NCBI RefSeq assembly: GCF_900637975.1
Contig: NZ_LR134477.1
Span: 744,001 to 808,000, forward strand
DNA length: 64,000 bases
Source: Actinomyces viscosus
GTDB taxonomy: Bacteria; Actinomycetota; Actinomycetes; Actinomycetales; Actinomycetaceae
Direction: 5' to 3'
This document shows, in pieces, positions 34,672 to 60,837 of the stretch. The notes under the pieces are model-generated. The model saw only the letters and a program-made list of their open reading frames with translations. It had not been told where the DNA came from and did not search any database. Within the stretch, counting starts at the first letter, position 1; each line of letters starts with the position of its first letter. The position numbers and the translations under genes are program-made.

Positions 34672-34689
34672 CCCGCCCCTGGGCCTGAA

Positions 34690-37275: not shown

Positions 37276-37989
37276 GTGAATTCCAGTTCGGGCAGGTGGG
37301 GTGACGTCAAGTCGGAGCTCTGCGGTACAACGGGTGGGCGGCCGATCGGCCTGCCACATCGTGTTGTGCCGTCCATCGAGTACGCGGAGGTCACTGGCGG
37401 GGCGCTGACCGCTCAGGTCTGGCACGGTCCGCTCCGGCGGCGGCGGACCTCCCATGGGTGTAGTCCGTTGCCCTGGATCCTGGCTGAGTGCATCGGGTGC
37501 GCTGAGTCCGAGTTGCTCGTCACTCGTCACGCATGCCGGGCGTGTGGCAGCGCAGAGCACGGGCGGCCTGTGCTCGTCGCTTCACCAGCGCATCCGCATG
37601 GGGCGCAGATTTCGATTTCCTATGCCCGGGATACCGATCGCTATGTCCTCGCATTGTCGACGGCGGATATCGGTGTGGATACGGCTGACGCGTTGACTCC
37701 TGACATATGTGCCCGGTTGCGTAGAACGCTGACCGAGCCCGATCGGCTCTTTGTCGATGCAGCTCCCGTTGCAGTGCAACCAGATCTGGTCCTTAAAGCG
37801 TGGGTTGCGCGCGAAGCCTACCTCAAGGCCAAAGGAGTCGGCCTTACCGCTGGATGGCGCCAGCTCTCCGTGCTGGCACCCCGAGCGTCGGGTAGGAAGA
37901 AAGTGTCAGAGATGTGGATGGTGCATGACATTTCTTTCGACTTTCAACCAGATTCTTCCTGCACCGTGATTGCACTTCGAGATTCTTAG
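37276..37989 (+). CDS. 4'-phosphopantetheinyl transferase (Sfp-type)
   Basis: 237 residues. Transfers phosphopantetheine from CoA to a carrier-protein serine. The key pieces are GRPVL... ISISYARDTDRYVLALS, the Mg-binding IGVDTAD (normally GxDxE; here D-T-A-D) and WVAREAYLKAKGVGL, the Sfp-family WxxKEAxxK motif with Arg-Glu. It is the first gene of the cluster and its likely target is the tandem carrier at 43495-44070. Start GTG 37276 has no clear ribosome site; the N-terminal ~50 residues are poorly conserved. 53 bases separate it from the next gene. Confidence 0.8.
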   Translation: MNSSSGRWGDVKSELCGTTGGRPIGLPHRVVPSIEYAEVTGGALTAQVWHGPLRRRRTSHGCSPLPWILAECIGCAESELLVTRHACRACGSAEHGRPVLVASPAHPHGAQISISYARDTDRYVLALSTADIGVDTADALTPDICARLRRTLTEPDRLFVDAAPVAVQPDLVLKAWVAREAYLKAKGVGLTAGWRQLSVLAPRASGRKKVSEMWMVHDISFDFQPDSSCTVIALRDS

Positions 37990-38042
37990 GTGTCAAACAT
38001 CGATCCGCTGTTAACTCGTTTTTCCATGAACAGGAGTACATT

Positions 38043-39356
38043 GTGAACACTGCGGATAGCGCCGACGTCTGTGTTGTCGGCCTGGGTTACGTCGGAGAGA
38101 CGATGGCTGCGGCCTTCTTGGATGCTGGGATGTCGGTGTTGGGGGTTGAGCGCAACGATGAGCGGCGTGAGGCTCTGCAATCCGGACGAGCCCCAATCCA
38201 GGAACCTGGGGTTAACGAGGTCCTGGTCGCGGCGGATGACCGCTTCACCGTGGTTGCGTCCCTTGCTGACGCACCCTTACCCAAAAATATCGTACTGTGC
38301 GTGGGTACTCCGGTAAACCACGCAAGCGGTCATCCTGAGATCATGCTGGACCAGCTCACGGCTGCTATTGAGGACCTGGCGCTAATGATGACCGAGGACC
38401 ATTTGGTCGTCGTCCGCAGCACGGTACCGATCGGTACCTGCGACCGACTGGTGGTGCCAGCGCTGTCTGAGAAAATCGACAATCCTCTAGTAGCGATGTG
38501 CCCGGAGCGCACGATTCAGGGCAAGGCATTGCACGAGATCCGTACCTTACCTCAGGTCATCGGTGCGGCGTCGCCAGAATCGTTCGATCGTGCAGTTAAG
38601 CTTTTCCGAGCGGTCGCTCCCTGCCAGACTTTGGTGTCGTGCCTGGCCGCAGCTGAGGCTGTGAAGCTGTTCTGCAATGCGCACACCGATCTCATTTACG
38701 CTTTCGGCAATCAGGTAGCCCGTGCGTCCGAATCGCTAGGAATCGACGCATACGAGGTCATCACCTCCGCGAACATCGGCTATCCCCGTCCAGACCTGCA
38801 GCATCCCGGATATGTGGGCGGCAGTTGCCTGACAAAGGACCCCTATATGCTTCTTCAATCGCTGCGTGGCGTCGGCTACGAGCCGTCCCTGACGCGGGCG
38901 GCTCGCGCACTCAACGAGGACGTGCCCGGATGGGCAGTGGACACGGTTCTGGACGAGCTTGCCGGTGCTGGGGTGGTCCCCACCGACGCTCGGATCGCCG
39001 TCCTCGGCCTGGCCTACAAGGGCGATCCAAGAACCGACGACGTCCGCGGTGCGGCATACCCTGCCGTCCTTGAGCGGCTCCGCGAGCGAGGGGTCGGCGA
39101 GATTCGGCTCCACGACAACGTGGTGTCCCTGCCCGAGGAGTCTCGACCGGACATGGCTCAGATGGCCGACGTCCGCGATGCGGCATATGGCTGCCACGCA
39201 TTGATCATTCTTAATAACCAGGTCGAGTACCGCAAGTTGCCGTTGGACGAGCTCGCCGCAGTGATGGCCGAGCCGCGTGTCGTCTATGACCTGTGGAGCG
39301 TCGTCGACCCCAGTACCTCGGGTGCTGTGACCCTGCGGAGGTTTGGCCGTGGCTGA
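38043..39356 (+). CDS. UDP-glucose/GDP-mannose dehydrogenase family protein (WecC-like)
   Basis: 437 residues from GTG 38043 with AGGAG 8 bases upstream. Oxidises C6 of a nucleotide sugar to a uronic acid in two NAD-dependent steps. Rossmann VVGLGYVGE (about residue 11), CPERTIQGKALHEIRTLPQVIGA, which resembles the UDP-ManNAc dehydrogenase subgroup, catalytic Cys in GGSCLTKDPYML (about 259-261), and C-terminal VLGLAYKGDPRTDDVR. It overlaps the next gene by 8 bases. Supplies a sugar acid, probably an N-acetylhexosaminuronate, to the pathway; exact substrate inferred only. Confidence 0.9.
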   Translation: MNTADSADVCVVGLGYVGETMAAAFLDAGMSVLGVERNDERREALQSGRAPIQEPGVNEVLVAADDRFTVVASLADAPLPKNIVLCVGTPVNHASGHPEIMLDQLTAAIEDLALMMTEDHLVVVRSTVPIGTCDRLVVPALSEKIDNPLVAMCPERTIQGKALHEIRTLPQVIGAASPESFDRAVKLFRAVAPCQTLVSCLAAAEAVKLFCNAHTDLIYAFGNQVARASESLGIDAYEVITSANIGYPRPDLQHPGYVGGSCLTKDPYMLLQSLRGVGYEPSLTRAARALNEDVPGWAVDTVLDELAGAGVVPTDARIAVLGLAYKGDPRTDDVRGAAYPAVLERLRERGVGEIRLHDNVVSLPEESRPDMAQMADVRDAAYGCHALIILNNQVEYRKLPLDELAAVMAEPRVVYDLWSVVDPSTSGAVTLRRFGRG

Positions 39357-40323
39357 ACGAAAGATTCTGATCACCGGCGGTGCTGGTTTCATCGGGCTAC
39401 ACGTGGCCCGTCACCTCGTGGATGAGGCAGAAGTATGGATGGTCGACAACTTCAGCCGCGGCCAGCAGGATGCAGAGTTCGATGCTGTCGCCAATCGGTG
39501 CATCAAGGTCGAAGCCGACCTTACAGTACCCGGTGCGCTTAACGACTTGCCCCGCGACTTCACCGAGATCATCCACCTGGCTGCTGTTGTGGGCGTACAG
39601 GCCGCCAACACCGAGCCCTACCGCGTGTTCACGACCAACGTCGACTCCACATCCACGGTGGTCAGGTTTGCGGCTGAGCAGACCGGTGCGAGTCTGCTCT
39701 TCGCCAGCACCAGTGAAGTCTACGCGCAAAGCGCTGCAGTAGGGCTCGCAACGATTCCTACTCCGGAGTCAGTACCGATCCTCATGACGGACCTCGCTCA
39801 GTATCGTGCATCATACTCCCGCTCCAAGGTGGTCGGGGAATCATTGGTCCACTACGCGGCGGCGGCATTCGGCTTCCCGGCTGTCATCATCCGACCCCAC
39901 AATATCTACGGCCCGCGTATGGGGCATGCGCATGTCATACCGCAGTTTATCGACCGCGCGCTTGAGCGGATGGACCCGTTTCCTATGTACGGTGGAGACC
40001 AGGTCCGCGCGTTCTGCTACATCGACGACGCGGTGACGGCTATCAGCAGGCTGCTGACGGCACCGATGGAGCCGGGGCAGGTTGTCACTGTTAACGTCGG
40101 CAATGGCCAGGAACCGGTCGAGATGGCTGAGATAGCGCGTCGAGTCTGCCGCATCGCTGGCTACGAGCCCATGTTTGTTGAGCATGGTGCCCCCGATAAC
40201 TCGCCGGAGCGTCGCCAGCCCGACACAACGCTGCTTGCCGAGCTGACCGGGTTCGTACCAGGAGTAGACCTTGACGAGGGCATCACCTCCACCTTCGCCT
40301 GGTACGCGGAGCGCCGAGCATGA
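39349..40323 (+). CDS. NAD-dependent sugar epimerase/dehydratase
   Basis: 324 residues from GTG 39349 (CGGAGG 7 bases upstream; a TTG at 39343 is less likely). Extended short-chain dehydrogenase with GGAGFIGLHVARHL, the catalytic region STSEVYAQ (Ser/Thr) and Y-x3-K in ASYSRSKVVGE, plus IRPHNIYGPRMG, typical of nucleotide-sugar 4-epimerases and related decarboxylases. Together with the dehydrogenase upstream it could interconvert uronic acid sugars. Overlaps the glycosyltransferase start (ATGA). Confidence 0.88.
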   Translation: MAERKILITGGAGFIGLHVARHLVDEAEVWMVDNFSRGQQDAEFDAVANRCIKVEADLTVPGALNDLPRDFTEIIHLAAVVGVQAANTEPYRVFTTNVDSTSTVVRFAAEQTGASLLFASTSEVYAQSAAVGLATIPTPESVPILMTDLAQYRASYSRSKVVGESLVHYAAAAFGFPAVIIRPHNIYGPRMGHAHVIPQFIDRALERMDPFPMYGGDQVRAFCYIDDAVTAISRLLTAPMEPGQVVTVNVGNGQEPVEMAEIARRVCRIAGYEPMFVEHGAPDNSPERRQPDTTLLAELTGFVPGVDLDEGITSTFAWYAERRA

Positions 40324-41363
40324 AGATCTTCTTCGTCCTCAGCGGTTACCGTCCGTATATTGGAGGCGCCGAGCAGCAGACTCGATGCCTTGCCGACGAA
40401 CTGTGCTCGATGGGGCACATCGTCGAGCTCCTCGTCGTCGACCAAGGGAAGGCGACGGGCGACGCTCTGGAATCGCTCTCGGCCCAGTTCTCTGGCCCCG
40501 CTCGTCCCGATGTAGTCCATCTTGTGGACTCCGTCGATGGGGCACTGGTTGACGGGACATGCTCGCTGGTGCGCGAGCACGGCGGAACGCTGGTCTACAC
40601 ACCCGCCACCGACCAGTCTCTCTGGGGCGACTCGGAGACCGTGTGGCGTGCGATTCGTGAGGCTGACTTGGTGCTCGCGATGAACGAGACCGAGCAGAGA
40701 GCCCTCGCCGCGGTGCGTAGCTCAGGGGTCGAGTGCATCGAGCAAGGCGGCGACTTGGGCGAAGGAACCTACGATCTGCGTGCTGAACTCGGCATACCCA
40801 CCGGTGCTCCGGTTCTGCTTTTCGTGGGGCGCAAGATGGCCTCAAAGGGGTATGCGGCGCTCGTTCAGGCTGGTCCAATCATCTGGGACTCGCGCCCGGA
40901 TACCCGGCTGGTCTTCGTGGGACCAGCAGTGGACACCGACGCCGAGGTTCTGATCAGTCAGCTCGGGGATCCACGGGTCATCGACCTGGGCGTCGTTTCG
41001 GAAAAGATAAAGACCGCGGCATACGAGATGAGCACGATAGTGTGCTTGCCCTCCCGTGCGGACGTTTTTCCGATGGTCATTGTCGAGGCTTGGGCGGCAC
41101 GGCGTCCTTTGCTCCTCGGACCTTTCGATGGAGGGAAGTGCTTTATTGAAGAGGGAGTCGCCCTCGCGTGCGGGGACACGCCCGGCACGGTTGCGGCTAG
41201 TGCGGTCCATCTCCTCGACCACCCGGATATGGCCGAGGAACTTGCGGATCGGGGCTATGCGCGCTATCTCGGGCGACACTCATGGTCAGCGGTCGCTCGC
41301 CAGCATCTCGATCTCTACTCGCGGGTGGTCTTCACCCCCTCACACCAGGGAACAGGAATATGA
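40320..41363 (+). CDS. GT4-type glycosyltransferase
   Basis: 347 residues. GT-B fold: N-terminal FVLSGYRPYIGGAEQQTRCLADEL, a Gly-rich acceptor loop common in GT4 enzymes, and C-terminal LLFVGRKMASKGYAALVQA with the LPSRADVFPMVIVEAWA donor motif (E-x7-E related). No signal or membrane segment. It probably attaches the sugar made by the two preceding enzymes to the growing product. Acceptor not predictable. Confidence 0.88.
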   Translation: MKIFFVLSGYRPYIGGAEQQTRCLADELCSMGHIVELLVVDQGKATGDALESLSAQFSGPARPDVVHLVDSVDGALVDGTCSLVREHGGTLVYTPATDQSLWGDSETVWRAIREADLVLAMNETEQRALAAVRSSGVECIEQGGDLGEGTYDLRAELGIPTGAPVLLFVGRKMASKGYAALVQAGPIIWDSRPDTRLVFVGPAVDTDAEVLISQLGDPRVIDLGVVSEKIKTAAYEMSTIVCLPSRADVFPMVIVEAWAARRPLLLGPFDGGKCFIEEGVALACGDTPGTVAASAVHLLDHPDMAEELADRGYARYLGRHSWSAVARQHLDLYSRVVFTPSHQGTGI

Positions 41364-43495
41364 TTCGCGGCGTCGTTATCGCTGGCGGGCTAGGTACCCG
41401 GCTGGCTGGTTACAGTGCATCTCCCAAGCCGTTGGTCGAGGTCAATGGCAAGCCCATGCTCAGGAGGGTGCTTGAGTGTCAAGCAGAATTGGGAATTACC
41501 GAAGTCACCCTGATACTGGGGCACCGCCACGCGGAAGTGCTCGAGGCTACGCTCTCCTGGGATCTGCCCATGGCGCTCCACAGCGTTGTTGAAGAACAGC
41601 CGCTGGGCACCGCAGGAGGCTTATCCCTTATAGGCGCTCATGGCTGTCCCACGCTGGTGATGAACACGGACGTGATGATCCGGCCCAGCGAGGCGGCGCG
41701 CCTCATCGACGACCACCGCTGCGAGTCGTCCGCGGCCAGCGCTTTGGTCCACGAGGTCCAGTGGACACTCCCCTACGGGTCGGTGATCGTGGGCGACCGC
41801 TGCCGCCAGATCCTGTCGATCACGGAGAAACCCTCGCAGCAGCATCTGGTTCTGACCGGTGTTTATGTCCTCGACGACCGCGTCCTCGGCCTGATCCCAC
41901 CCGGGCAGCGCTACGACATGCCTCGGCTCCTCCTCGACGCTGTGGCAAAGGGGCATCCGGTGCGTGCGGTGCGGACCACAGGTGAGTGGTTCGACGTGGG
42001 CACCCCGGATACTCTTCGTCAGGCCGAGCAAGTTGTCGGCCCGGAGCCATCCTCCGTGGGTGGGAGTCCGGTGACTGGACCACCTGTACAGAGCCTTGGT
42101 CGTATACTGACCGACGCTGTAGCCACCGCCCCAGATCGCGCGGCGTTGGTCGCCAATGGTGAGTCTCTCACCTATCAACAGTTGGACGAGGCTGTCCAGC
42201 AGCGTAGCGAGGCGCTTCTGGCAAGCGGTGTCGTACCGGGTGACGTCGTTCTGGTCGACGGTGCTGCCAACTTCGAGTTCGTGATCTCAGCCTGGTCGGT
42301 GTGGACGGTTGGAGCTGCCCTGGCCGTCGCCCACCCCGGATGCGCTCCCGTCGAGCTGGAGCGCCTTCGCCAGCTGGTGCGGCCACGCGTCGAGCTACGG
42401 GGTAAGGGTTCCTTTGCTGCGGAAACTGGGGGGACTGCGGGGGTTACGGCACCGGAGGTCCAGCTGCGCGATCCCGCTCTGGTCGTCGCGACATCGGGCT
42501 CAACTGGGGAACCAAAGGCGGTCGTTTGTCCCCTTTCGCAGGTGTGGTTCAGTCTCGACGCCATCCAGGAGCGGCTGGGTTATCGCGATGACGACATTGT
42601 GCTCCTAACCCTTCCCATGGCCTTTGACTACGGGCTCTACCAGCTGTTGCTGGCGGCTCGTGTGGCGGCGACCGTGGTACTGCGGTCCCCGGACAACCTC
42701 TTGTCGCTCGCCAATGACGTCGAGCGATATAAGGCCACGGTCGTGCCAGGTACGCCGTCGATTCTGAGGGCCTTGGCGCGAACGTGGTGCAGGCGTCCCC
42801 GCGCAGGACACGTCCGCCTCCTCACAAACACTGGCGAGAGGCTCGACGAGGCAGTTCAACAGCAGATTGCCATGGCGTTCCCGGGGGCTGCGATGGCCCT
42901 CATGTACGGCATCACCGAGTGCAAGCGCATATCGATCGAGGTAGTTCCCGTTGAGGCTCTCCCTAAATCGACGTCTGGGTTCCCTTTGCGCGGCGTTTCC
43001 GTTCGAGTTGTAAATTCTCAGGGCGAGTCGGTGGCTGAGGGTGATGCAGGAGAAATTGTGGTGAGCGGCGGCAATCTGACTGACGGATATCTACGCGATC
43101 CCGATGCCACTGCGCGGCGATTTCGATGGGACATGCAAAACAACGTGCGCGAATTGTGGACCGGCGACTTCGGTCGCCTCATCGATGGCCGTGTTGTGGT
43201 CGAGCATCGTATCGACGGTCAGCGGAAACTCAACGGTGTTCGAGTAGAAGCGGGAGAAATCGAGCGAGCTGCTGAACTTGTGAGCGGAGTGGAGCGCGCA
43301 GTACTGGTACCTTTACCAGACAGCGACCCAGTTCTCGTCGTCATGGGGGTGGCGCGCGCGGAAGAGGTCCGAGCGGCACTGGAAGAACACCTCAACCGGG
43401 CCAAAATCCCGCGACGCGTGGAATCTGTTCCTGAGCTACCGCTCACACGTAACGGAAAGATTGCTGTCCCCGAACTAGTGACGAGGTTGAACTAA
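41360..43495 (+). CDS. Nucleotidyltransferase-adenylation domain fusion protein
   Basis: 711 residues from ATG 41360, overlapping the glycosyltransferase stop by 4 bases. Residues 1 to ~235 form a sugar-1-phosphate nucleotidyltransferase (AGGLGTRLAGY at residue 8, PKPLVEVNGKPMLRR, metal-binding NTDVM). Residues ~245-711 form an ANL adenylation domain: A3 ATSGSTGEPKAVV (about 376), A5 YGITECKR, A7 LWTGDFGRL, A8 GQRKLNGVRVEAGEIE, A10 catalytic Lys in LTRNGKIAV. All motifs needed for both activities look intact. NDP-sugar formation and amino/aryl acid activation in one chain is not an arrangement I recognise. There is no carrier domain in the protein; the next gene supplies two. Confidence 0.88.
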   Translation: MIRGVVIAGGLGTRLAGYSASPKPLVEVNGKPMLRRVLECQAELGITEVTLILGHRHAEVLEATLSWDLPMALHSVVEEQPLGTAGGLSLIGAHGCPTLVMNTDVMIRPSEAARLIDDHRCESSAASALVHEVQWTLPYGSVIVGDRCRQILSITEKPSQQHLVLTGVYVLDDRVLGLIPPGQRYDMPRLLLDAVAKGHPVRAVRTTGEWFDVGTPDTLRQAEQVVGPEPSSVGGSPVTGPPVQSLGRILTDAVATAPDRAALVANGESLTYQQLDEAVQQRSEALLASGVVPGDVVLVDGAANFEFVISAWSVWTVGAALAVAHPGCAPVELERLRQLVRPRVELRGKGSFAAETGGTAGVTAPEVQLRDPALVVATSGSTGEPKAVVCPLSQVWFSLDAIQERLGYRDDDIVLLTLPMAFDYGLYQLLLAARVAATVVLRSPDNLLSLANDVERYKATVVPGTPSILRALARTWCRRPRAGHVRLLTNTGERLDEAVQQQIAMAFPGAAMALMYGITECKRISIEVVPVEALPKSTSGFPLRGVSVRVVNSQGESVAEGDAGEIVVSGGNLTDGYLRDPDATARRFRWDMQNNVRELWTGDFGRLIDGRVVVEHRIDGQRKLNGVRVEAGEIERAAELVSGVERAVLVPLPDSDPVLVVMGVARAEEVRAALEEHLNRAKIPRRVESVPELPLTRNGKIAVPELVTRLN

Positions 43496-44070
43496 TGAGT
43501 TACCTGGCAAGCCAAAGAATCCAATTCCTGTCGGTCGTATCAAAACTGTCGTCAGGCGTTTCGACCGAGTCTCTTACGGATGATTCTCGATTATTTGACA
43601 TTGGTTTTGACTCAGCACGCAGTGTAGATCTTTTAATGGCTCTCGAAGATGAGTTTCAGGTCATTTTTGATGACAATGAGCTTGCTCTTGAAAATATGCA
43701 GACCGTCGGCGGAGTGTGGGATCTGCTTGCTCCCCATCTGACTACTCGACCACATCAAGAGGAGTCGAACATACCAGAGACATCTCTCACCGGGGCAACC
43801 AGCGTTGCGGAATTGGTGCGCATCGAGATGGCTACGTGTCTGCAAATGCCCGCGGCCGACCTTACGGATGACTCGGACTTCTTCGACTTAGGAGGACATT
43901 CTCTGATTGCGATCGCACTGGTCGAGGGGTTGTGTGGTCAGCTGCCACTGTCCGAGGACCAGACCCGTGAGGAGGCGGAGGGGGAGGTGCTCACTGCACT
44001 CTTCCTCACCCCGAGGCTGGCCGACTTCACTGCTGCCGTTGAGCGGATTGTTTCCGGGAGCCCAGAGTGA
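43495..44070 (+). CDS. Tandem acyl/peptidyl carrier protein
   Basis: 191 residues with two carrier domains. First: LFDIGFDSARSVDLL (attachment Ser about residue 40). Second: FFDLGGHSLIAIALV, a standard PCP motif (Ser about 136). They are joined by a ~25-residue polar linker. Both would be loaded with phosphopantetheine by the transferase at 37276. The two adenylating enzymes at 41360 and 48978 match two carriers in number. Three TTA leucine codons (33, 47 and 132) are present, rare in this GC-rich genome. Start overlaps the previous stop (TAATG). Confidence 0.88.
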   Translation: MSYLASQRIQFLSVVSKLSSGVSTESLTDDSRLFDIGFDSARSVDLLMALEDEFQVIFDDNELALENMQTVGGVWDLLAPHLTTRPHQEESNIPETSLTGATSVAELVRIEMATCLQMPAADLTDDSDFFDLGGHSLIAIALVEGLCGQLPLSEDQTREEAEGEVLTALFLTPRLADFTAAVERIVSGSPE

Positions 44071-50201: not shown

Positions 50202-50206
50202 TCCCT

Positions 50207-50938
50207 CTAGCCCCTGGTCACGCGCAGCTCGCAGACGTAGCCGAGTCGGTCTTCTACCTCGACCAGATCTATCCGGCTGATGTCTGCGAGCCGAGGAAGC
50301 ACGAGCAGCATCTGATGACTGCTCGAAGGGGTCTCCGGACCGATAATCTGCAGCTCACCACCGACCCTGAGGCTTCTTCTTCCGATCATCGTAGTGTCAC
50401 GCTGCACAGTGACCGGCTCCATCGTGAGTCCGCCTTCCGCGTGCGCGCTTACCTCGGCGATGACCAACGAGTCGACCGAGGGACCAGCTGCGCGGTCGTG
50501 CGGGTAGACGACCTGCTCCATCGACACCACCGCGACGTGGCCGAAGGCGCCCTGGGCACACCAGCCCTGAGCGACCTGCAGAGCTACGAACAGGGTAGCC
50601 CGGCCAATGGCCGCCACCGACGCGAGTGTTGCCTCCGAGCCGAGCCGGTGCAGAAGGTAGGGGCCCGGCAGAAGGTTCTCGTTGCTGTCCGGTTGCGCGG
50701 TCGCCAGCACGATCGCATCGGCGCGCGAGAGCCAGGGAGCCAGCTCGACCGCAGCGTCGGCCAGATCTACGAATCGCGTGGCAGTCTCCCGTCCCGGGAG
50801 GCCGGACGGCATCTGCGGCAGGTCGGCAGCGTCATACGGACTCACCGCTTTTGCGGGCGTAAGCGCCAGGCCTCCAAGCAGTTCGGCCAGAGGTTTTCCA
50901 GCACAACTGGTCAACGAATTCAGGTACGTGGGTCCCAC
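50207..50938 (-). CDS. Thiolase-fold (KAS III-like) protein lacking the catalytic Cys
   Basis: 243 residues on the strand opposite to the surrounding operon. The stretch SRADAIVLATAQPDSNENLLPG, LGSEATLASVAAIGRATLFVAL and HVAVVSMEQV aligns by eye to the 58360-59301 KAS III-like protein (VTHVVAARTN, LACASGLGAL, ATCLVVAGEP), but the Cys position is replaced (VAAIGRATL). It is also shorter, with no His/Asn region. The GTG start follows a TACACT -10 box. A non-catalytic partner or scaffold for the other KAS III-like protein is one reading; a relic is another. Confidence 0.65.
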   Translation of the reverse strand: MGPTYLNSLTSCAGKPLAELLGGLALTPAKAVSPYDAADLPQMPSGLPGRETATRFVDLADAAVELAPWLSRADAIVLATAQPDSNENLLPGPYLLHRLGSEATLASVAAIGRATLFVALQVAQGWCAQGAFGHVAVVSMEQVVYPHDRAAGPSVDSLVIAEVSAHAEGGLTMEPVTVQRDTTMIGRRSLRVGGELQIIGPETPSSSHQMLLVLPRLADISRIDLVEVEDRLGYVCELRVTRG

Positions 50939-50992
50939 AGCAGACAGTGTAAAGCGGTTGGCCTATCGTCTAAGCGACGGAAAGGTGAGGCG
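50939..50992. promoter_or_regulatory. Divergent promoter region inside the cluster
   Basis: On the - strand TTAGAC and TACACT (about 16-17 bases apart) precede GTG 50938 for a leaderless message. The + strand holds a GGAAAGGTGAGG ribosome site before ATG 50993. The only real break in the coupled + strand series is here. Confidence 0.5.
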
Positions 50993-52204: not shown

Positions 52205-53901
52205 TGAGGTGCGTTATGGGAGTGACCTGGTTCGGTACAGGGGGCATCCACTGGCTGGATGAGCAGCAGCAGACAGAGTTGTACAAAGACGCTGTCACGA
52301 TGGTCCAGGCAGGACTTTCCGTGGTGCGTCTCTTCGTTCCGGCAGCGAATCTGATGGAGCAGCGGCTCCCAGCGACGATCGACCAGGTCCGTGCTGCTGT
52401 CGATGCCGCCCAAGCTGCGGGCTTATCCGTCATCATCTCGGCTCCGACATTCTGGATGAACGGTATGGTGCTTCCGCCCGCTGATCCTTCTGGGGTAGCA
52501 GTGTTCGAAAATGAGGCTTCGCTAGAACAAGCTGAGGCCATGCTGCGGGGGTTGGCCGCTGGCCTACGCGACTGCAGCCAGGCTCTTATCTACGACCTTG
52601 GGGACGAGATCTTTCACGCCCGCCGCTCGACAAACCTCCCCGTAGCGGCCGTGCGTCGATGGTTCAAGCGTATGACGTCGGCCGTCCGGTCGCAGGATTC
52701 TGGTGCGGTGGTCATGCAGTGCCATGACGCAGGTTGGGGCACCAACGCGGGCCGGCGCTGGCTGTTGGCTGCGAACCCCGTGGACCTCATCGGGGTCCAC
52801 GCCTTCCCGCTGTGGTCCCCGGTGCGTCTCGAGTCGCACGCGGATCGGCGGGCGACAATGCTGCTTCCTTTCCTCGTGGCAGTCGTGGCGGCCTGGCAGC
52901 GGGTGGTCGTCGATGAACTCACGTGCTACGGCGCGGGTGAGCCCGAGACGTTGAGATATGCGCGCGCCGTCATACCGGCCTGCATGGCGCGCGGCGCCGA
53001 GTCGGTATTATGGTGGTGCTACAAGGACATCGAGTCGAGGCGCCCGCCTTATACTGGCCGTCCCTCTGAGACCGACCGAGGACTCGTGCGCCGTGACGGT
53101 ACCCCTCGGACGGTATTCGAGACGATCCGCGAACTAGCTGCGGGGGAATTAATCGCCCCGCGTCGGGCGACTGCGGCACTAGTGCTGTCCGAGCCCAGTG
53201 ACGAGCGCCGGTCGTACCTATCACCGGGACTGGACCCGCTAGAGGCAGAATTCACCGCCCACGAAGCCCTGACTACTGCGCACATTGTGCACGACGTGTG
53301 CCGTCTCAATCAGGTAGATGGCTACGACTTCCTCGTCTGTCCAGGCATGACCGACGTATCGTTCGAGACCCAGGATATCCTCATGCGGCATGTTCGCGAC
53401 GGCGGTGATCTCCTCGTGTCGTTGGGGGGCAGTGCAGGCGAGATACCGGAAGAACTGCTGGATGGGTTGCGATGCGTGGACTTCCGGCGAGACCTCTCCG
53501 GTGTGTTCCAGATAGGCAAAGATGTCGCTGGTGAGGTATCCGTTCCGGAGCTCGCCGTCCTCGAAGGGGACGGGTGGTCTTCGATCGCTCATGTCGACAA
53601 TATCCCGGCCATGTGGTATCGCACTGTGGGAAATGGCCATATCGTTGTCATCCCATGGTGGCCTGAGGCGACAGTGGGCACTAGTACCCTCCGTGTGCTG
53701 TATGACGTTGCCCTCGCGCGTATGGGGCAGCGCAGTACCTGGAACCTTCCCGATGATGTGGAGGTGCTCGCTGTGAGCCTAAATGGGAGACCAGCACATC
53801 TACTGATCAACCATGACGACACCCGGGCTCATGAGTTGCCCGGCGTGGAGGTCCCGGCGTTGGGACCGCGGTACACGTTCGTCCTGGAGGCCGACGCATG
53901 A
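52204..53901 (+). CDS. Cytoplasmic glycoside hydrolase-like TIM barrel protein
   Basis: 565 residues with no signal peptide. A (beta/alpha)8-type domain with MGVTWFGTGGIHWLD, DLGDEIF (probable acid/base Glu, about residue 135) and VVVDELTCYGAGEP (probable nucleophile Glu, about 235) resembles GH5/GH42-type beta-glycosidases; the C-terminal part contains a GH42-trimerisation-like Rossmann domain (YDFLVCPGMTDVSFETQDILMRHVRDGGDLLVSLGG). An intracellular glycosidase in a biosynthetic operon could trim or transfer a sugar. Exact family uncertain. Coupled to both neighbours. Confidence 0.75.
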   Translation: MRCVMGVTWFGTGGIHWLDEQQQTELYKDAVTMVQAGLSVVRLFVPAANLMEQRLPATIDQVRAAVDAAQAAGLSVIISAPTFWMNGMVLPPADPSGVAVFENEASLEQAEAMLRGLAAGLRDCSQALIYDLGDEIFHARRSTNLPVAAVRRWFKRMTSAVRSQDSGAVVMQCHDAGWGTNAGRRWLLAANPVDLIGVHAFPLWSPVRLESHADRRATMLLPFLVAVVAAWQRVVVDELTCYGAGEPETLRYARAVIPACMARGAESVLWWCYKDIESRRPPYTGRPSETDRGLVRRDGTPRTVFETIRELAAGELIAPRRATAALVLSEPSDERRSYLSPGLDPLEAEFTAHEALTTAHIVHDVCRLNQVDGYDFLVCPGMTDVSFETQDILMRHVRDGGDLLVSLGGSAGEIPEELLDGLRCVDFRRDLSGVFQIGKDVAGEVSVPELAVLEGDGWSSIAHVDNIPAMWYRTVGNGHIVVIPWWPEATVGTSTLRVLYDVALARMGQRSTWNLPDDVEVLAVSLNGRPAHLLINHDDTRAHELPGVEVPALGPRYTFVLEADA

Positions 53902-54761
53902 GTAACCCTGTTGTGACCGACGCACACCTCCATCTCGGAGACCGCTCGAGCGGCTTCGAAGAGCGGATGTGGCTCGACCTGTGCTGCGGGGCAGGGGACC
54001 GGGTCAACGCTCCGAACGACCCCGGCTCGATCGTTGCCGAAATGAACCGAACAGGGGTGCACCGTGCGTGTTTGCTCGCCTTCGACACGCGTCCCAGAAC
54101 TGGGACGGTCGTGACTAATGAGTCGGTGCTCGCCGCCACGGAAGCGTACCCCACCCGATTCGTTCCCTATTTGTCCGCGCCTGCCGAGCCCGAGGGAGTT
54201 GCAGAGTGTGTAAGACTTATACGATGCCGTCCAGAAGTAGGCGGCGTGAAGCTCGCACCGGCCTACGCGGGTGTTTCACCGGCGGACCCGGTCTGGGACC
54301 CGATCTATGAACTCTGCGCCCGGCGGAGGATCCCTGCACTCGTACACCTGGGATTCACCCCTTCCACCGAGGCGTCCCCTCGCTTCGTCGCTCCGATGCT
54401 GCTAGAGGAGGCAGTGGCGAGATGGCCAGGCACGTTGTTCCAGGTGGCCCATGTCGGCAACCCTTGGACCTCGGTCACCATCGACCTGATGGCGCGGCAC
54501 GAGAACGTGTGGGCTGACCTGTCGATCTTCCTTGCGTTCCGTTCCGTTCCCGAAATCTCGTCAGTCATCAAAGCGGCTCTCGACCGCGAAGTGGCGGACC
54601 GGCTCTTGTTCGGCAGCGATTGGCCCTTCGGACCGATCACCGAGTCACTCGACCATCTTCACCAGGCGCTTGATGAGCTCGGCACTGCGGTCACCGAAGA
54701 CGTCCGGGTCGGATTGCTTGGCGATAATATCTTCCGCCTGCTCAACCAGAAAGGTTCATGA
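53898..54761 (+). CDS. Amidohydrolase 2-family metal-dependent hydrolase
   Basis: 287 residues. TIM-barrel hydrolase with DAHLHLG (residues 8-14) at strand 1, GGVKLAPAYAG, LVHLGF (metal His), VAHVGNPW and C-terminal GSDWPFG, the pattern of ACMSD-like decarboxylases and lactonases. The acting substrate is unknown; hydrolysis or decarboxylation of a pathway intermediate is likely. Overlaps the genes on both sides by 4 bases. Confidence 0.87.
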   Translation: MSNPVVTDAHLHLGDRSSGFEERMWLDLCCGAGDRVNAPNDPGSIVAEMNRTGVHRACLLAFDTRPRTGTVVTNESVLAATEAYPTRFVPYLSAPAEPEGVAECVRLIRCRPEVGGVKLAPAYAGVSPADPVWDPIYELCARRRIPALVHLGFTPSTEASPRFVAPMLLEEAVARWPGTLFQVAHVGNPWTSVTIDLMARHENVWADLSIFLAFRSVPEISSVIKAALDREVADRLLFGSDWPFGPITESLDHLHQALDELGTAVTEDVRVGLLGDNIFRLLNQKGS

Positions 54762-55807
54762 TGCACGCTCTTCGCATGGCTGGTCCCCGGCAGCTGGTCG
54801 TCGATCACGCCGCCCCCAGCCCGACTCCTGGCCCGCAGGACGCCGTAGTACGGGTATGGTACTCGTCCCTGTGCGGCACAGACTTGCATGCGCTGCGCGA
54901 CGAGCTCCCAGGCTTCCGCTGGGGCGGGATCAGCGGGCATGAGGCCGTAGGTGAGGTGGTGGCTGTCGGGGCAGAGGTCAAGCGGCGCCATCCGGGTGAC
55001 GTTGTTGTGGTCTCAGACGTGGTCGCCTGTGGGCAATGCAGGGCCTGTGAACGCGGCTACCACTATCAGTGTGACCGGGTAGGTCTGTTCGGCTACGGTA
55101 CTGTGGTCGGAGACATAGCGTACGACGGAACTCACGCGGAGTTTATGCGCGTCCCGTTTGCAGACACGGTGCTGGTGCCACTGCCAGAGGGCATCGACCC
55201 ACGAGTTGGGCTGCTGGCCGCGGATGCCCTTTCCACGGCATACCAGGCAGTAAAGGCTGCAGGGGTCGTTGAAGGTCACTCGTGCGCAGTTGTAGGAGCT
55301 GGGCCAGTCGGCCTGCTTTCCGCTTCCGTCGCTCGCGCGCTCGGGGCCGCTCGGGTTGTCGTCATTGATCCGATCCTCCGCCGTCGAGAGGTTGCCGCCC
55401 GTGAGGTGGCCGATGTGGCCTGGCACCCGGATGAGGCCGCAGACAATGGTGAAGTGTTCGACGCGTGCATTGAGGCTGTTGGCTCCAACGCCGCCCTACT
55501 CCAGTGTTGCCTGCTGGTCGGCCCGCATAGCGTCGTCAGCGTGGTCGGCTCGAACCCAAGCGAGGCGTCGCCCGTTCCGGCGACTCGCCTCTTCGCTCAG
55601 GAAGCTACGCTGCGCTGGGTGGTGGGTAACCCCATCCTTGCGGCGGGGCGGGCGTTGCGCCTAATGGCTCAGACCGCCACGGCTCCGACGTTTGTCTTCG
55701 ACTCGTCTTGCGAGCTCGTCCGGACACCACAGTTGCTCCCGGCTTTCGATGCGGGTGAACTCGTGAAGATACTCATACACAATGCCCCCGATGGAGGACG
55801 TCAATGA
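54758..55807 (+). CDS. Zinc-dependent alcohol dehydrogenase (MDR family)
   Basis: 349 residues. Catalytic-zinc Cys in LCGTDLHAL (about residue 39) and GHEAVGEVVAVG, structural-zinc cysteines in CGQCRACERGYHYQC, and NAD-binding VVGAGPVGLLSASVARALGA. Resembles threonine/sorbitol/inositol-type dehydrogenases. Together with the adjacent aldehyde dehydrogenase it could take an alcohol to an acid in two steps. ATG 54758 gives MM; 54761 is the alternative. Confidence 0.9.
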   Translation: MMHALRMAGPRQLVVDHAAPSPTPGPQDAVVRVWYSSLCGTDLHALRDELPGFRWGGISGHEAVGEVVAVGAEVKRRHPGDVVVVSDVVACGQCRACERGYHYQCDRVGLFGYGTVVGDIAYDGTHAEFMRVPFADTVLVPLPEGIDPRVGLLAADALSTAYQAVKAAGVVEGHSCAVVGAGPVGLLSASVARALGAARVVVIDPILRRREVAAREVADVAWHPDEAADNGEVFDACIEAVGSNAALLQCCLLVGPHSVVSVVGSNPSEASPVPATRLFAQEATLRWVVGNPILAAGRALRLMAQTATAPTFVFDSSCELVRTPQLLPAFDAGELVKILIHNAPDGGRQ

Positions 55808-57144
55808 TCACGGTGCTGGACCCCGGGCTGGGTGAGGTCGTGGGTGAGGTCGTGGAGACCCGCCCAGAGCAGCTGGCTGCTGTCGTAGACACGGCCCAGT
55901 CGGCGAGCCGCGAATGGTTGACGGTAGGAGTGGAGGAGCGTCGGACAATACTGCGTGAAATGACGCGGATATTGCGGCCGCACGCTGAATCACTCGCCAC
56001 CACGTTAACCCGTGAACAGGGTAAGCCACTGGCCGAGGCTCGCGCGGAGATTGCAATCTCGACCGGGTGGTTCGAGTCGCTGGCCAGCGTATCGATTGAG
56101 TCCGACAGTGGTCGAGAGCTTCCCCATCTCAAAGCTGAGGTGGCCCGTCGCCCAGTTGGGGTGGTTGGGTGCATCTCACCTGCCAACTTTCCGGTGACGT
56201 TGAGTGTCGTGAAGCTCGCTGCTTCGCTCCTCGCGGGCAATGCAGCCGTCGTGAAGCCCGCTCCGGAGACCCCGCTCGCCATTTCAAAGCTCATCAACCT
56301 TATTAGTCCGTTGGTGCCGGAGGGACTGGTATCTGTGGTTCACGGCAGCGGCGACCTTGGCGTAGCCATGGTCGAGTGCCGGGGCATTGATCGGATCTCC
56401 TACACCGGCAGCACAATGGCTGGTCGTGACGTCGCGGTGCGAGCCGCGCAGCGCCTGATGCCGGTTACTCTCGAGCTCGGCGGCAATGATGCGGCTATCC
56501 TCATGCCAGGAATCTCGGACGAGGCCGTGGAACGGGTGGCGCGCGCTGCGCTGGTCAACGCCGGTCAGTTCTGCTGCGCTGTGAAACGGGTCTATGTCAG
56601 CGAGTGCGACGAGCAGCGGGTGGCTGACGGCATACAGGCGTATCTCGACACGCTCTCGATGGGACATGGCCTGGACGCTAACACTACATTGGGTCCGCTG
56701 ACCAAGGCGGGCCAGGTGCGGACCCTCAACGAGCTACTGACAGATAGCGAGTTACGGGCAGCTCGTCTCAGCAAAGCGGTGCAAGTGCCCGATCAGGGGA
56801 ATTTCTTTGCTCCACGCGTCGTGCAGAAATTACCCGATGGAAGCCCGCTTGAGCTTCAGGAACAATTCGGGCCCGTCATACCTGTGATGACCTACCGCAC
56901 CGTCGACGAGGCAGTTGCTCGCGCCAATTCGACCGACTTCGGGCTGGGAGGATCCGTATGGGGCGAGGGAGCGCCGCAGATCGCTGATCGTCTCAACTGC
57001 GGAATCCGGTGGATTGACTCCCACGGCCTGCTCGGGCACACGGTGCCGTTTGCCGGACGCAAGAACTCGGGAATCGGAGTCGAGTACGACACGGCAGGCA
57101 TCGAGGAGTTCCGGCAGTTTCACGTCACGGTGAGGTCTCGATGA
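55804..57144 (+). CDS. NAD(P)-dependent aldehyde dehydrogenase
   Basis: 446 residues, slightly short of the usual 470-490. Cofactor region SPANFPVTLSVVKLAASLLAGNAAVVKPAPETP, base Glu in TLELGGNDA, catalytic Cys in VNAGQFCCAVKRVYV (about residue 257) and late EQFGPVIPVMTY. Belongs with succinate-semialdehyde/lactaldehyde-type enzymes. Supplies a carboxylic acid that one of the adenylating enzymes could then activate (inference). Confidence 0.92.
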   Translation: MITVLDPGLGEVVGEVVETRPEQLAAVVDTAQSASREWLTVGVEERRTILREMTRILRPHAESLATTLTREQGKPLAEARAEIAISTGWFESLASVSIESDSGRELPHLKAEVARRPVGVVGCISPANFPVTLSVVKLAASLLAGNAAVVKPAPETPLAISKLINLISPLVPEGLVSVVHGSGDLGVAMVECRGIDRISYTGSTMAGRDVAVRAAQRLMPVTLELGGNDAAILMPGISDEAVERVARAALVNAGQFCCAVKRVYVSECDEQRVADGIQAYLDTLSMGHGLDANTTLGPLTKAGQVRTLNELLTDSELRAARLSKAVQVPDQGNFFAPRVVQKLPDGSPLELQEQFGPVIPVMTYRTVDEAVARANSTDFGLGGSVWGEGAPQIADRLNCGIRWIDSHGLLGHTVPFAGRKNSGIGVEYDTAGIEEFRQFHVTVRSR

Positions 57145-58367
57145 CCTCCCGCGCGCTCAGTCCATTGGAGACGGAGGTCGTCGCGCGCTGGGGCACACCA
57201 GCATACCTCTACGACCTTGACGAGGTGCACCGTAGCTGCGCGCGATTGCGGGCAGCCCTGCCTGATGGCTCACGCGCCTACTACTCCCTCAAGGCGAACC
57301 CGCATCCCGATGTCGTCAGTGCCGTGGCCGACGCTGGCATGGACCTGGAGGTCTCGTCGCTGGGGGAATTGGCCGTTGCCGTTCGGTGCGAAGTGCCCGG
57401 GCGTGAGATTATTTACACCGGTCCTGGCAAGGACCGTCGCGAACTTAAAGCGGCGCTGCGTATAGGGGTACAAACCTTCTCGGTGGAGTCGGCGTGTCAA
57501 CTTGTAGACCTGGTGGACGCGGCGGCCAAGTACAGCGTGGGTCCGCGCATCCTGCTGAGAATCCACCTCATGGATGGGGCCTCCGGCGGGCTTCACATGT
57601 CAGGAGCTCCGAGTCAGTTCGGCATGTCCATCGGCGAGGCTGAACGTCTATTGGCGAACAGCGGTCTGGCGGAGCAGGTCGGGGGCGTGCACTTCTTTCC
57701 ATTGAGCAATGCACGTGACGCCGATGAGCTGATCTACAGCATGCGTTTGTCTATCGCAGCTGCTGCCAGACTCCAGGTCTGTGCTGGCCGACCGTTTGAG
57801 GAAATCGACCTGGGTGGAGGGTTCCCGGCACCCTTTGCGGAGACGGAGGAGGCTCACCTCTTGCCGGGCGTCTCGGAGGCGGTTACAGCCCAGCTCGACA
57901 GGTACGGGCTACCCGCAGGTGCCGTGTCGTTCGAGTCAGGGCGCTATGTTGCGGCCACCTGCGGTACCTTGCTGGCACGAGTCGTTGATGAGAAGGTCTC
58001 GGGAGGCAATCGCTTTGTTATCCTCGACACTGGCATCCATCACCTTGCTGGCCTGGCGGCAACTCGGCGCATGTTTCCGCGCGACGTCGCCATCCGCGCT
58101 TCGCATGAGATGCAGCTTGGTGCAGCTCGACAGTTCCTGGTGGGACCCTTGTGCACACCGGTCGACGTGCTCTCCAAACGGCGAGACCTCAGGGATCTCG
58201 CTGTTGGCGACGTCATTGCGGTGGATAACGTCGGCGCTTACGGTTTGACCGCGAGCCCGCTCGGGTTCCTCTCGCGTCCAACACCAGCAGAGGTCGTGAC
58301 GTCGGGAGGCGAGATTGTGTCGGCGACCCACATCTCTTTGGTCCGGGAGCCACTGCTCGATGCCTAG
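57141..58367 (+). CDS. PLP-dependent decarboxylase (LysA/BtrK-like, fold III)
   Basis: 408 residues. Alanine-racemase-like N-terminal barrel with the PLP Lys in AYYSLKANPHPDV (Lys 51), HFFPLSNARDADEL, EIDLGGGFPAPFAE and ESGRYVAATCG, and a C-terminal beta domain with GPLCTPVDVLSKRRDL and DNVGAYGLTASPLGFLS. Group IV decarboxylases act on diaminopimelate, ornithine or, in BtrK of butirosin synthesis, on an amino acid tethered to a carrier protein. The presence here of carrier, ligase and a BtrH-like protein favours the last option. Overlaps both neighbours. Confidence 0.88.
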   Translation: MTSRALSPLETEVVARWGTPAYLYDLDEVHRSCARLRAALPDGSRAYYSLKANPHPDVVSAVADAGMDLEVSSLGELAVAVRCEVPGREIIYTGPGKDRRELKAALRIGVQTFSVESACQLVDLVDAAAKYSVGPRILLRIHLMDGASGGLHMSGAPSQFGMSIGEAERLLANSGLAEQVGGVHFFPLSNARDADELIYSMRLSIAAAARLQVCAGRPFEEIDLGGGFPAPFAETEEAHLLPGVSEAVTAQLDRYGLPAGAVSFESGRYVAATCGTLLARVVDEKVSGGNRFVILDTGIHHLAGLAATRRMFPRDVAIRASHEMQLGAARQFLVGPLCTPVDVLSKRRDLRDLAVGDVIAVDNVGAYGLTASPLGFLSRPTPAEVVTSGGEIVSATHISLVREPLLDA

Positions 58368-59301
58368 GGCGCTTTCGTTACTAGAGGTCGCGTACGCCGT
58401 GCCTACGCGCATGCCAACGGCCCAAGAGCGCGTGCACGAGCTTGGGATTGCATCCGCCGAGCGGATGATGACGTCGCACTTCTTCGGTCTGGATCGCGTT
58501 CCGTTGCTGCAACAAGAGACGTATGGTGGTCTCGTCTCCGAAGCGTGCCGCGGTCTGGAGCGGCTGCCAGCACTGGCAGATACCGTAACCCACGTCGTTG
58601 CGGCCCGAACCAATCCGGTGATCCACTGGCAGGAGAGTCAGGAACTGCACGAGGCCTGTGCCGAGCTCGGTCTGATCGGGGCGACTGTACTCAGCACGAC
58701 GCAGCTGGCCTGCGCATCGGGACTGGGAGCGCTGTCTGTGGCCAATGCCCTACTGCCGGACGTGGAAGATGGTGCGACGTGTTTAGTCGTAGCGGGGGAA
58801 CCCATCCCCAACATTGGTTTCGCCTATATACCAGGAACGACGCTGATGAGCGAAGCGGTGAGCGTTGCATTGGTGCGCCGCTGTTCGTCCGGTGCACGCA
58901 TCGTGGACGATATTACCAGTGTGTGCGGGCAGTTTTTCGACGCAGAGCTGCCCGGTGGTCAGCTGTTGGCATTCCAGCAACGCTATCCCGTCGCAGTTAC
59001 CGAAGTCGTCCAACGTCTTGCCGAGCGTAATGATATCACGCTGGACGACGTCGAGATTTTCCTCCCGATGAACGTCAACACGTTGTCGTGGCGCCGGCTG
59101 GCAGCGCAGTGGGACGTTCCCGCCGAGCGTTTCTGGCTCGACAACGTGGCGCGCCTGGCCCATGCATATGGGGCTGACGTCTTTATCAACTACGCCGACG
59201 CACTGGCTGCCGGGCGGATCCGGGCCGGTGACTACGCTGTCGGGATCGCTACCGGACTTGGGGCAACCTTCAGTGCTGTTCTGCTGCAGCAGCAGGATTG
59301 A
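58360..59301 (+). CDS. KAS III-like acyltransferase/condensing enzyme
   Basis: 313 residues from ATG 58360. Thiolase fold with catalytic Cys 118 in TTQLACASGLGAL, followed by ATCLVVAGEPI and a C-terminal DNVARLAHAYGADVFINYADALAAGRI. The usual FabH PHQAN/GNTS pair is replaced (PMNVN and HAYGAD), as in KAS III relatives that transfer acyl groups to O/N acceptors or condense unusual starters. Working from carrier-bound acyl groups is likely. Its 3' end overlaps the convergent BtrH-like gene by 32 bases. Confidence 0.85.
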   Translation: MPRALSLLEVAYAVPTRMPTAQERVHELGIASAERMMTSHFFGLDRVPLLQQETYGGLVSEACRGLERLPALADTVTHVVAARTNPVIHWQESQELHEACAELGLIGATVLSTTQLACASGLGALSVANALLPDVEDGATCLVVAGEPIPNIGFAYIPGTTLMSEAVSVALVRRCSSGARIVDDITSVCGQFFDAELPGGQLLAFQQRYPVAVTEVVQRLAERNDITLDDVEIFLPMNVNTLSWRRLAAQWDVPAERFWLDNVARLAHAYGADVFINYADALAAGRIRAGDYAVGIATGLGATFSAVLLQQQD

Positions 59302-60453
59302 GTACTGGTGTGCCCGCAGGCGTGGTGCTCCACGGTGACGGTGGTAATACAAGGGTCATTGGATCGTGCTCAGGCATCCGCACGACCCGGGGCTGCAGAT
59401 CAGCGCACATGATGTCCAGGTGCTCGATCATCCGGACGACGACATCCAACTCGCGGGATCGCAACGTAGTGAGTTCGTCAGCGATGCGGTGCCCCCACTT
59501 GGGACTGCGGGCGAACGCCAGGAGCGATCGACTCCGAGTAGCATTGACACCCGACTCCAGCGCGGTCAGGTCATTGAGAATGCCATCCCAGGCCAGTTCC
59601 GGGGCAAGCCGCGCCAAACGTATGCCGCGCTGGTGCATGAGTTCGACGTGTTCCCGGAGCACCTGTAGGTGGCGAGGATCCTGTGGCGCCCTGCCGTCGG
59701 CGTAAGCGCGGAAGTATCCAGCGATCTCGTCATATCCTCCGATACCATACACCCGTATCCACGGCTCCATCGTCATACGGTAGTGCTCGGAAGTGTTCAG
59801 GCCCTGGGCGAACTCGGTCAAAGTCTGACGGATGAGCTCCAGATCGAGATCGTATGTCGCGTTGCCCTTGAGATGGTAGAGGACCAGGTCACGCGAACCG
59901 CCGTCCAATTCCCACCCGTGAGTGATCGCGGTCTTGAGCGCAGGTCCGTCAATTAGCGTGCGGTCAAATACCCCCCCCGCTCGTCGAACCCCGCCACCTC
60001 GAACTGAGACCCATCTGGGGTCGAGCCCACGACCAGCATGTCGTGGACGAAGTGCATGCGCTGGTAGTTGGGCCGTCGGGGGACGTAGAACTCGTCAGCA
60101 CTGAGGTAGACGTAGTAGCCACTTTGCACCTGCTCCGCGATGAATCCAGTAGGTGATGTTACCAACTCACGGACCCAGTCCCACGTCATCGAGTGACTCG
60201 TTAGGAAGGGGTTATCGCGGTAGTCGTATAGGAAGTGACAGAAAGGTACTGGGGCCATGTGATCCGGGTTGAAGCACGTCTGGATGAAGTTGCTCAAGAC
60301 CCAGTCTTGCGACTCGGGGCGCGTTTCGATAATCGCCAAAGGAAACGCATAAAACTGGTATGCCGATGCTGACGGCGGCACAACGAGCGGATGGCGTATC
60401 ATGGTATCTGCGGTGATGCGCTTGTCTGTGTCTGTGTCTGTGGAGGTCTTCAT
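59270..60453 (-). pseudogene. BtrH-like (butirosin H N-terminal family) protein, split by a frameshift in a G8 tract
   Basis: Start ATG 60453 (GGGAG upstream). The first frame ends at residue 166 (VAGFDERGGYLTAR-stop); with one extra G in the homopolymer at 59971-59978 the frame continues (GGVFDRTLIDGPALKTAIT) to 59270, giving about 394 residues. SGYYVYLSADEFYVPRR, MHFVHDMLVVG and VAGFDERG are the pattern I associate with BtrH_N-type proteins; BtrH transfers a carrier-bound aminoacyl group to an aminoglycoside. The C-terminal half is helical. Homopolymer error or phase variation could both produce the break. ACAGAC occurs three times in tandem near the N-terminus (TDTDTD). Confidence 0.7.
59971..59978. 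repeat. Homopolymer of eight C (G on the coding strand)
   Basis: Lies exactly at the frame break of the BtrH-like gene. Nine G, or six, restores one continuous reading frame. Confidence 0.9.
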
Positions 60454-60833: not shown

Positions 60834-60837
60834 TTGC

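Follow-up and report, generated by a model that had tools for sequence, protein, structure and literature searches.

The window analysed here is the whole 64,000-nucleotide stretch from position 744001 to 808000 of a single 3.49-Mb contig of Actinomyces viscosus, and all coordinates below are positions within it. It holds a cluster of 20 open reading frames (ORFs) in which genes for amino-acyl activation on stand-alone carrier proteins lie among genes for sugar metabolism, acyl transfer and export. Pfam and NCBIfam scans of these 20 cluster ORFs, together with motif checks, gave the following inventory.

37276-37989, plus strand: phosphopantetheinyl transferase (PPTase, ACPS family; Pfam/NCBIfam, motif check)
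38043-39356, plus: UGD, a nucleoside diphosphate (NDP)-sugar 6-dehydrogenase (GGSCLTKD motif)
39343-40323, plus: short-chain dehydrogenase/reductase (SDR), UDP-glucuronate-decarboxylase-like (STSEVY, YxxxK)
40320-41363, plus: GT4 glycosyltransferase (Pfam/NCBIfam)
41360-43495, plus: NT-A1, a fusion of a sugar-1-phosphate nucleotidyltransferase (NT; NTP_transferase) and a VinN-type ligase (A1; AMP-binding)
43495-44070, plus: tandem carrier protein with two PP-binding stretches (CP1, GFDS; CP2, GGHS)
44067-45434, plus: stand-alone condensation (C) domain (HHLAIDQ, HHxxxD kept)
45431-47200, plus: ABC exporter half 1 (LSGGQ; Walker B LVLDDW)
47188-48978, plus: ABC exporter half 2 (LSAGQ; Walker B LVLDEP)
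48975-50201, plus: A2, a short acyl-AMP ligase, oxalyl/malonyl-CoA-synthetase-like, lacking the amino-acid-binding Asp
50207-50938, minus: KSn, a short protein resembling beta-ketoacyl-acyl carrier protein synthase III (KAS III), lacking the catalytic Cys
50993-52204, plus: DegT/ArnB/TlmJ-like sugar aminotransferase
52204-53901, plus: GH5-like glycosidase-fold protein (weak, Pfam E 5.3e-5; 23.3 bits against a cut-off of 23.5)
53898-54761, plus: Amidohydro_2 family enzyme
54758-55807, plus: Zn-dependent alcohol/polyol dehydrogenase (ADH)
55804-57144, plus: aldehyde dehydrogenase (ALDH)
57141-58367, plus: DC, a BtrK/VinO-type pyridoxal phosphate (PLP) decarboxylase of the ornithine/diaminopimelate/arginine decarboxylase family (Lys51, Cys338)
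58360-59301, plus: KS3, a KAS-III-like acyltransferase (KAS III C-terminal domain; Cys118, His268, Asp273)
59953-60453, minus: BtrH-like acyltransferase, N-terminal half (weak BtrH_N match, E 1.6e-4, 22.3 bits against a cut-off of 29.7; frame ends after a run of eight G)
59270-59908, minus: BtrH-like acyltransferase, C-terminal half, in another frame (assigned by eye and position; no Pfam match)

The families score above cut-off, the checked genes carry the expected motifs and the GC content lies below that of the surroundings (about 0.59-0.65 at 36-62 kb versus 0.64-0.71 outside), so that the assignments go beyond chance. The locus is a genuine, mobile and rare cluster, in which the core chemistry is known and the surrounding combination is unusual. 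An earlier sequence-only reading had named nearly all of these genes, and the family scans confirm its list, the GH5-like and BtrH_N matches being weak. Its picture of a biosynthetic cluster built on stand-alone carriers, with genes for sugars and for an exporter, is equally borne out, as is the lack of a megasynthase: the scans detected no multi-domain nonribosomal peptide synthetase (NRPS) or polyketide synthase (PKS) among the 20 ORFs, all domains are free-standing, and the largest protein has 711 residues.

The tightly overlapping gene order that it described holds for most plus-strand neighbours, which overlap by 1-14 bases, but the run is interrupted by KSn, a second KAS-III-like gene missing from that list, because A2 and KSn converge whereas KSn and the DegT gene diverge. 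The aminotransferase is present, with its start near 50993 and not, as had been assumed, at 50198. In the 668-residue ORF at 50198-52204 the DegT match begins at residue 285, a start codon is found at 50993, and the first ~265 residues are antisense to KSn, which matches a protein family and has a 97% identical counterpart among database proteins (P0247). A 668-residue 'fusion' aminotransferase was thus rejected, its N-terminal part being the antisense of KSn. Codon-position GC at 50207-50938 fails to distinguish the two strands, and the values for 50998-52204, 58364-59301 and 59298-59705 were not used, these rows being out of frame or without an accepted gene. The BtrH-like gene does lie on the opposing strand, but it is split over two minus-strand frames, with the switch at the GGGGGGGG run (eight G), at about 59955-59985. 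Such runs are a usual spot for sequencing error or phase variation, and this one may represent a sequencing error, lost function or a phase switch; being frame-broken, the gene has a doubtful role in this strain. The remaining cluster genes are open frames with intact motifs where these were checked (GT4 was left out, and the GH pattern was uninformative).

As far as sequence can tell, the firmest part of the pathway is the step from aspartate to a beta-alanyl group. The best PDB match of the A1 ligase half is VinN (3WVN, E 4.4e-58, 200 bits), the best chain other than VinN reaching 166 bits (E 1.7e-47). The VinN residues Asp230, Ser299 and Arg331, which recognise the substrate by its amino and carboxyl groups and have been linked to activation of the beta-carboxyl of aspartate-type substrates (PMC7756342; PMC12186527; papers cited by PMC number are drawn on in excerpt throughout), correspond to Asp, Thr and Arg in A1, and AfcQ, another VinN-type enzyme, has been shown to activate L-Asp (PMC12186527). 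Two of the three are thus kept and the third is changed from Ser to Thr; among the relatives of A1, Asp and Arg each recur in 78/78, Thr in 77/78 and Ser in 1/78. The best PDB match of DC is BtrK (E 1.7e-49), and both Lys51, which we take to be the PLP lysine, and Cys338, presumably a conserved residue of BtrK/VinO-type decarboxylases, are found in 80/80 decarboxylase relatives. DC is predicted to act on carrier-bound aspartyl, and together with A1 should give beta-alanyl-S-carrier.

Butirosin, to which the sequence-only reading had compared the locus, shares the BtrK-like decarboxylase and the BtrH-like gene, but is not the best analogue, the ligase here being VinN-type. The butirosin (btr) genes include BtrH, a BtrJ-type ATP-grasp enzyme and genes for the aminocyclitol 2-deoxystreptamine. 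A pathway of this kind, in which BtrH attaches the amino-acyl side chain of an aminoglycoside, would accommodate DC and the weak BtrH_N match, but is very unlikely: the ligase is of another type, the BtrH-like gene is broken, and neither a BtrJ-type ATP-grasp nor 2-deoxystreptamine or other aminocyclitol genes were found among the cluster ORFs, the search not extending to the rest of the genome. Butirosin was rejected as the parent pathway on account of the ligase type and the broken gene.

The same two enzymes bear on a further explanation, namely a locus for modification of cell-surface glycans or lipids, in which an envelope sugar receives a beta-alanyl or acyl group. It is modelled on the role that exosortase-A-associated ligase and decarboxylase families might have, and ligase_PEP_1 and dCO2ase_PEP1 are indeed among the NCBIfam matches of A1 and DC; moreover, the best profile of the exporter is MsbA, and genes of the UGD, SDR, GT4 and DegT kinds are often part of loci for surface glycans. 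The two matches fall far below the cut-offs of these families (TIGR03098/TIGR03099), however, with 186.6 against 592.35 bits for the ligase and 247 against 478.45 for the decarboxylase. The 20 ORFs include neither an initiating sugar-phosphate transferase nor a flippase, a polymerase or a further glycosyltransferase, positions 1-32 kb of the window lying outside the scan, and a stand-alone C domain and a KAS-III pair would be unexpected in such a locus, which makes the explanation improbable. A standard capsule or teichoic acid locus, the alternative that the sequence-only reading had itself named, is not apparent either, the 20 ORFs including one GT4 and no other hallmark genes.

The KAS-III pair points to acyl transfer. 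KS3 is far from FabH (best E 1.1e-5), and a profile of seven KS3 sequences searched against the PDB returned FabH first, followed by ChlB3, DpsC and CerJ. The condensing triad of FabH-type KAS III enzymes, which we take to be Cys-His-Asn, is not retained: Cys118 is kept, but Met237 stands in place of the His and His268 in place of the Asn, while Cys118, His268 and Asp273 are invariant across the seven aligned sequences. This pattern suggests acyl transfer rather than decarboxylative condensation, and with the FabH His/Asn pair lost, an ordinary condensing role for KS3 is disfavoured. AfcL, a KAS-III-like protein with Cys, His and Asp, loads beta-alanyl chains in vitro and hands them to lysyl-CoA (PMC12186527), and KS3 is likened to it by the description of its residues rather than by alignment. 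Relatives of KS3 lie one gene from decarboxylase genes in S. decoyicus (L092) and A. vitis (L093), the two opened of 20 plasmid records with a KS3 match, and, by coordinates only, ~0.4 kb from one in Gemmobacter fulvus.

KSn appears to belong with KS3. A three-sequence hidden Markov model of its family ranks KSn first of the 306 window ORFs (E 1.2e-10; next 0.16), and in all four opened loci with a strong KS3 match (L092, L093, L109, L110) a KSn-family gene lies within ~3 kb of the KS3 relative; in the window 7.4 kb separate the two. Proteins of this family have about 285 residues, and 123 relatives score E <= 0.001; those with names among the 120 listed are hypothetical or uncharacterized, two carrying a beta-ketoacyl-type UniRef title. 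The predicted structure of KSn, in which blocks of residues 51-140 mostly have a predicted local distance difference test score (pLDDT) of 69-86, with one at 60, gave four Foldseek matches below 0.001, all to ketosynthase/KAS-III chains; lower in the ranking is a 238-residue chain from the ApeO/ApeC ketosynthase-chain-length-factor structure. We infer that KS3 and KSn may form a heterodimer. The KS3/KSn-like pair adjoins a PreAtp-grasp protein in L092, AMP ligases in L093 and L109 and a synthetase-like protein (sub-cut-off match) in L110; a KAS-III-like acyltransferase with a short KSn-like partner thus recurs with varied amino-acid activators in unrelated bacteria.

The distribution of the genes was surveyed around decarboxylase genes on genome contigs, the best 80 of 552 confirmed loci being kept and scanned at E <= 1e-6 over about 10 kb on each side, with some loci cut at contig ends. 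An A1 relative occurs in 78/80 of these loci and a CP1 homologue in 22/80. A C domain is present in 1, an SDR in 5, DegT in 6, ADH in 2 and each ABC half in 8, and none (0/80) has a relative of PPTase, UGD, GT4, NT, CP2, GH, Amidohydro_2, ALDH or either BtrH half. Matches to A2 in 66/80 may be cross-matches to A1 relatives. The ligase/decarboxylase cassette is therefore common and its partners here are uncommon. A DTACS motif was also seen in 32/80 loci, which is a crude motif count and not a PKS annotation. On the DNA level, the core (41360-45430) is found in 1/49 genomes of the genus, which is the own one, six others having just 33-44-base matches, and 72,556 plasmid records contain no near match to the cluster. 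The adenylation domain has a match in 26/200 family genomes including the own one, other listed matches being at most 34% identical. Both domains of the NT-A1 fusion occur together in just one other protein (P0001, 99%) among the 120 matches listed, out of 212, when 5.8 billion proteins were searched and 7,994 candidates were scored. A decarboxylase 76% identical to DC (P0122), on a contig of 3,867 bases, may mark a related cluster elsewhere.

The sugar genes plausibly lead to an NDP-4-aminopentose. The best specifically named matches of the SDR are UDP-glucuronate decarboxylases (1.2e-27), a family to which we take its STSEVY motif to be tied, and the DegT protein matches TlmJ best (4.2e-49), then ArnB (1.9e-43). 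In the calicheamicin, AT2433 and ArnA routes, 4-keto-pentoses arising from an SDR step are transaminated (PMC10338323). Among the other parts, A2, which resembles oxalyl/malonyl-CoA synthetases, has Ser at the position of the amine-binding Asp and Val at that of the Arg, and its substrate is therefore likely a non-amino acid. ABC half 1 has Asp where half 2 has the Walker B Glu; such a replacement in one half is a feature of heterodimeric exporters.

The cluster sits in an inserted block bounded by mobile elements:

34682-63769: 29-kb inserted block (island) without counterpart in two close relatives
35389-36764, minus strand: left IS3-family insertion sequence (IS) element (HTH_Tnp_1 and rve)
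61242-62627, plus: right IS3-family copy, whose open frames look broken

In one relative (G156), DNA matching the own genome up to 34,681 is followed by one base and then by DNA matching from 63,770, and in another (G170) own position 34,686 is followed by 130 unmatched bases and then by 69,181; these two had the best flank scores among the 58 relatives searched besides the own genome. The empty site implies that about 29 kb were inserted, and a chromosomal core cluster was rejected on this ground. The two IS3 copies bracket the cluster in inverted orientation and are 88% identical over 1.4 kb; the element has 12 matches in the own genome, including the queried copy and several partial ones. 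Three further features lie near the island ends: an inverted 107-base repeat of 96% identity just within them (37019-37125 and 60730-60834), a DDE_Tnp_1 transposase-like ORF at the left insertion end (34363-35244, minus strand) that overlaps a neighbouring hydrolase gene, and, 3' of the right IS3 copy, an ORF (62600-63442) that by eye combines a broken LacI-type regulator fragment with transposase sequence.

This setting raises the question of whether the locus is a decayed or scrambled mosaic without a product, its pieces assembled by IS3 elements. The frame-split BtrH-like gene and the flanking IS copies, one of them frame-broken, would fit, as would the gene for P0247, whose upstream junction differs from that of the window (at 50938) and whose leader, judged by eye, looks like the left edge of the island around 36.9-37.1 kb; that other genome seems to carry the cluster in rearranged form. 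Nevertheless, the other genes are open with their checked motifs intact, the fusion recurs at 99% in another record and the decarboxylase at 76% elsewhere, and the eight-G run has the other usual causes given above, which leaves a mosaic unlikely.

The reading preferred here, to which a probability of roughly 0.6 is given on sequence grounds, is that of a horizontally acquired cluster whose product, assembled on free carriers, would be a small beta-alanyl (pseudo-peptide) compound that bears a sugar and is exported. In the three steps that sequence supports well, the PPTase would prime the tandem carrier, A1 would adenylate L-aspartate (or a close analogue) at its side-chain carboxyl and load it on CP1, and DC would strip the alpha-carboxyl on the carrier to leave beta-alanyl-S-CP1. 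Subsequently, KS3, with KSn probably as its non-catalytic partner, may transfer the beta-alanyl or an acyl-beta-alanyl group without decarboxylation; A2 may activate a second, non-amino acid for CP2, perhaps derived from the ADH/ALDH pair, and the C domain may join the units on CP1 and CP2. UGD, the UXS/ArnA-like SDR and DegT would provide an NDP-4-amino-pentose, with NT supplying the NDP-sugar precursor and GT4 attaching the sugar, and the two ABC halves would export the product.

Several observations weigh against this proposal. None of the 80 decarboxylase loci has a KS3 or KSn match, so the KAS-III pair and the decarboxylase cassette usually travel apart. KS3 matches at 1e-8 occur in 13/396 genomes of the phylum, including the own one, and are strong only in G403 and G306, where relatives of both KS3 and KSn are found with no decarboxylase match within ~10 kb. 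Where 5/6 aligned relatives keep the His of a PHxxN motif, KS3 has Met, which makes its activity uncertain, and the KSn model is weak (mean pLDDT 58). The pairing of carrier with ligase is assumed. The SDR may instead act as an epimerase, its best PDB match (8vr2, 2e-36) bearing a general name only; the NT half resembles several types of nucleotidyltransferase, with scores that fall well short of every NCBIfam cut-off, and neither the NDP nor the sugar is fixed. Finally, the IS-rich setting and the broken BtrH-like gene may be those of a decaying cluster.

If true, the proposal would extend the VinN/BtrK route to a beta-alanyl-carrier beyond macrolactam PKSs and Burkholderia lipopeptides, and link this route with an amino-sugar pathway and with a rare NT-ligase fusion. 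The fusion suggests that sugar activation is coupled to amino-acyl activation. The analysis further brings to light that the genes for a KAS-III-like acyltransferase and for a short partner, the latter mostly annotated as hypothetical, form a conserved pair. A bolder and rather doubtful version would have the cluster make a glycosylated beta-alanyl natural product of a new class, probably in the human mouth, with the fused NT-A1 linking the formation of the sugar nucleotide to the activation of aspartate and KS3/KSn making the C-N bond. On this view KSn would be the first to be given a role among a widespread, unnamed family of non-catalytic partners, which would serve carrier-based amide assembly alongside activators that are ligases, ATP-grasp or synthetase-like proteins. 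Should the host be an oral Actinomyces, the product might act within the mouth community as a chemical signal or weapon.

The sequence-only reading had recognised the combination from no named pathway, and no described cluster with the same gene set was found in the open-licence PubMed Central (PMC) literature searched. The putative sugar route shares with ArnA/ArnB, calicheamicin and AT2433 the scheme of UDP-sugar acid to 4-keto-pentose and PLP-dependent transamination, but, unlike in those routes as excerpted, the aminopentose genes sit here in a beta-alanyl cluster (PMC10338323). The vicenistatin/fluvirucin starter cassette has the same ligase, decarboxylase and stand-alone carrier (VinN/VinO/VinL), but feeds a modular PKS (PMC11284099), whereas sugar, C-domain and KAS III genes, and no PKS, are found here. 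The bolagladin cluster (bol) of Burkholderia gladioli likewise has a VinN-like BolO, a carrier BolC, a BtrK-like BolN and two KAS III homologues, BolM/BolP, like the pair here; it feeds a depsitetrapeptide NRPS and includes an acyl-CoA dehydrogenase making dehydro-beta-alanine (PMC7756342), both absent here. The AFC-BC11 cluster (afc, Burkholderia) resembles the locus in its ligase AfcQ, carrier AfcK, decarboxylase AfcP, second acyl-AMP ligase AfcA, KAS-III-like acyltransferases and UDP-glycosyltransferase-type afcM. It is described as lacking C domains, and the excerpts show neither a UGD/UXS-like/DegT set nor an NT-ligase fusion; its desaturases and citrate-derived acyl chain (PMC12186527) have no counterpart found here. 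Scans and alignments thus bring together at this locus the set of the AFC/bolagladin type, namely VinN-type ligase, free carrier, decarboxylase and KAS-III-like acyltransferase(s), but no acyl-CoA dehydrogenase occurs among the 20 ORFs, hence the cluster falls outside that dehydro-beta-alanine subtype. KAS-III-like proteins have been proposed or shown to participate in the bolagladin and AFC-BC11 pathways (PMC7756342; PMC12186527), and the beta-alanyl-carrier assembly of the vicenistatin-type, bolagladin and AFC-BC11 systems (PMC11284099; PMC7756342; PMC12186527) appears to be the nearest published logic found.

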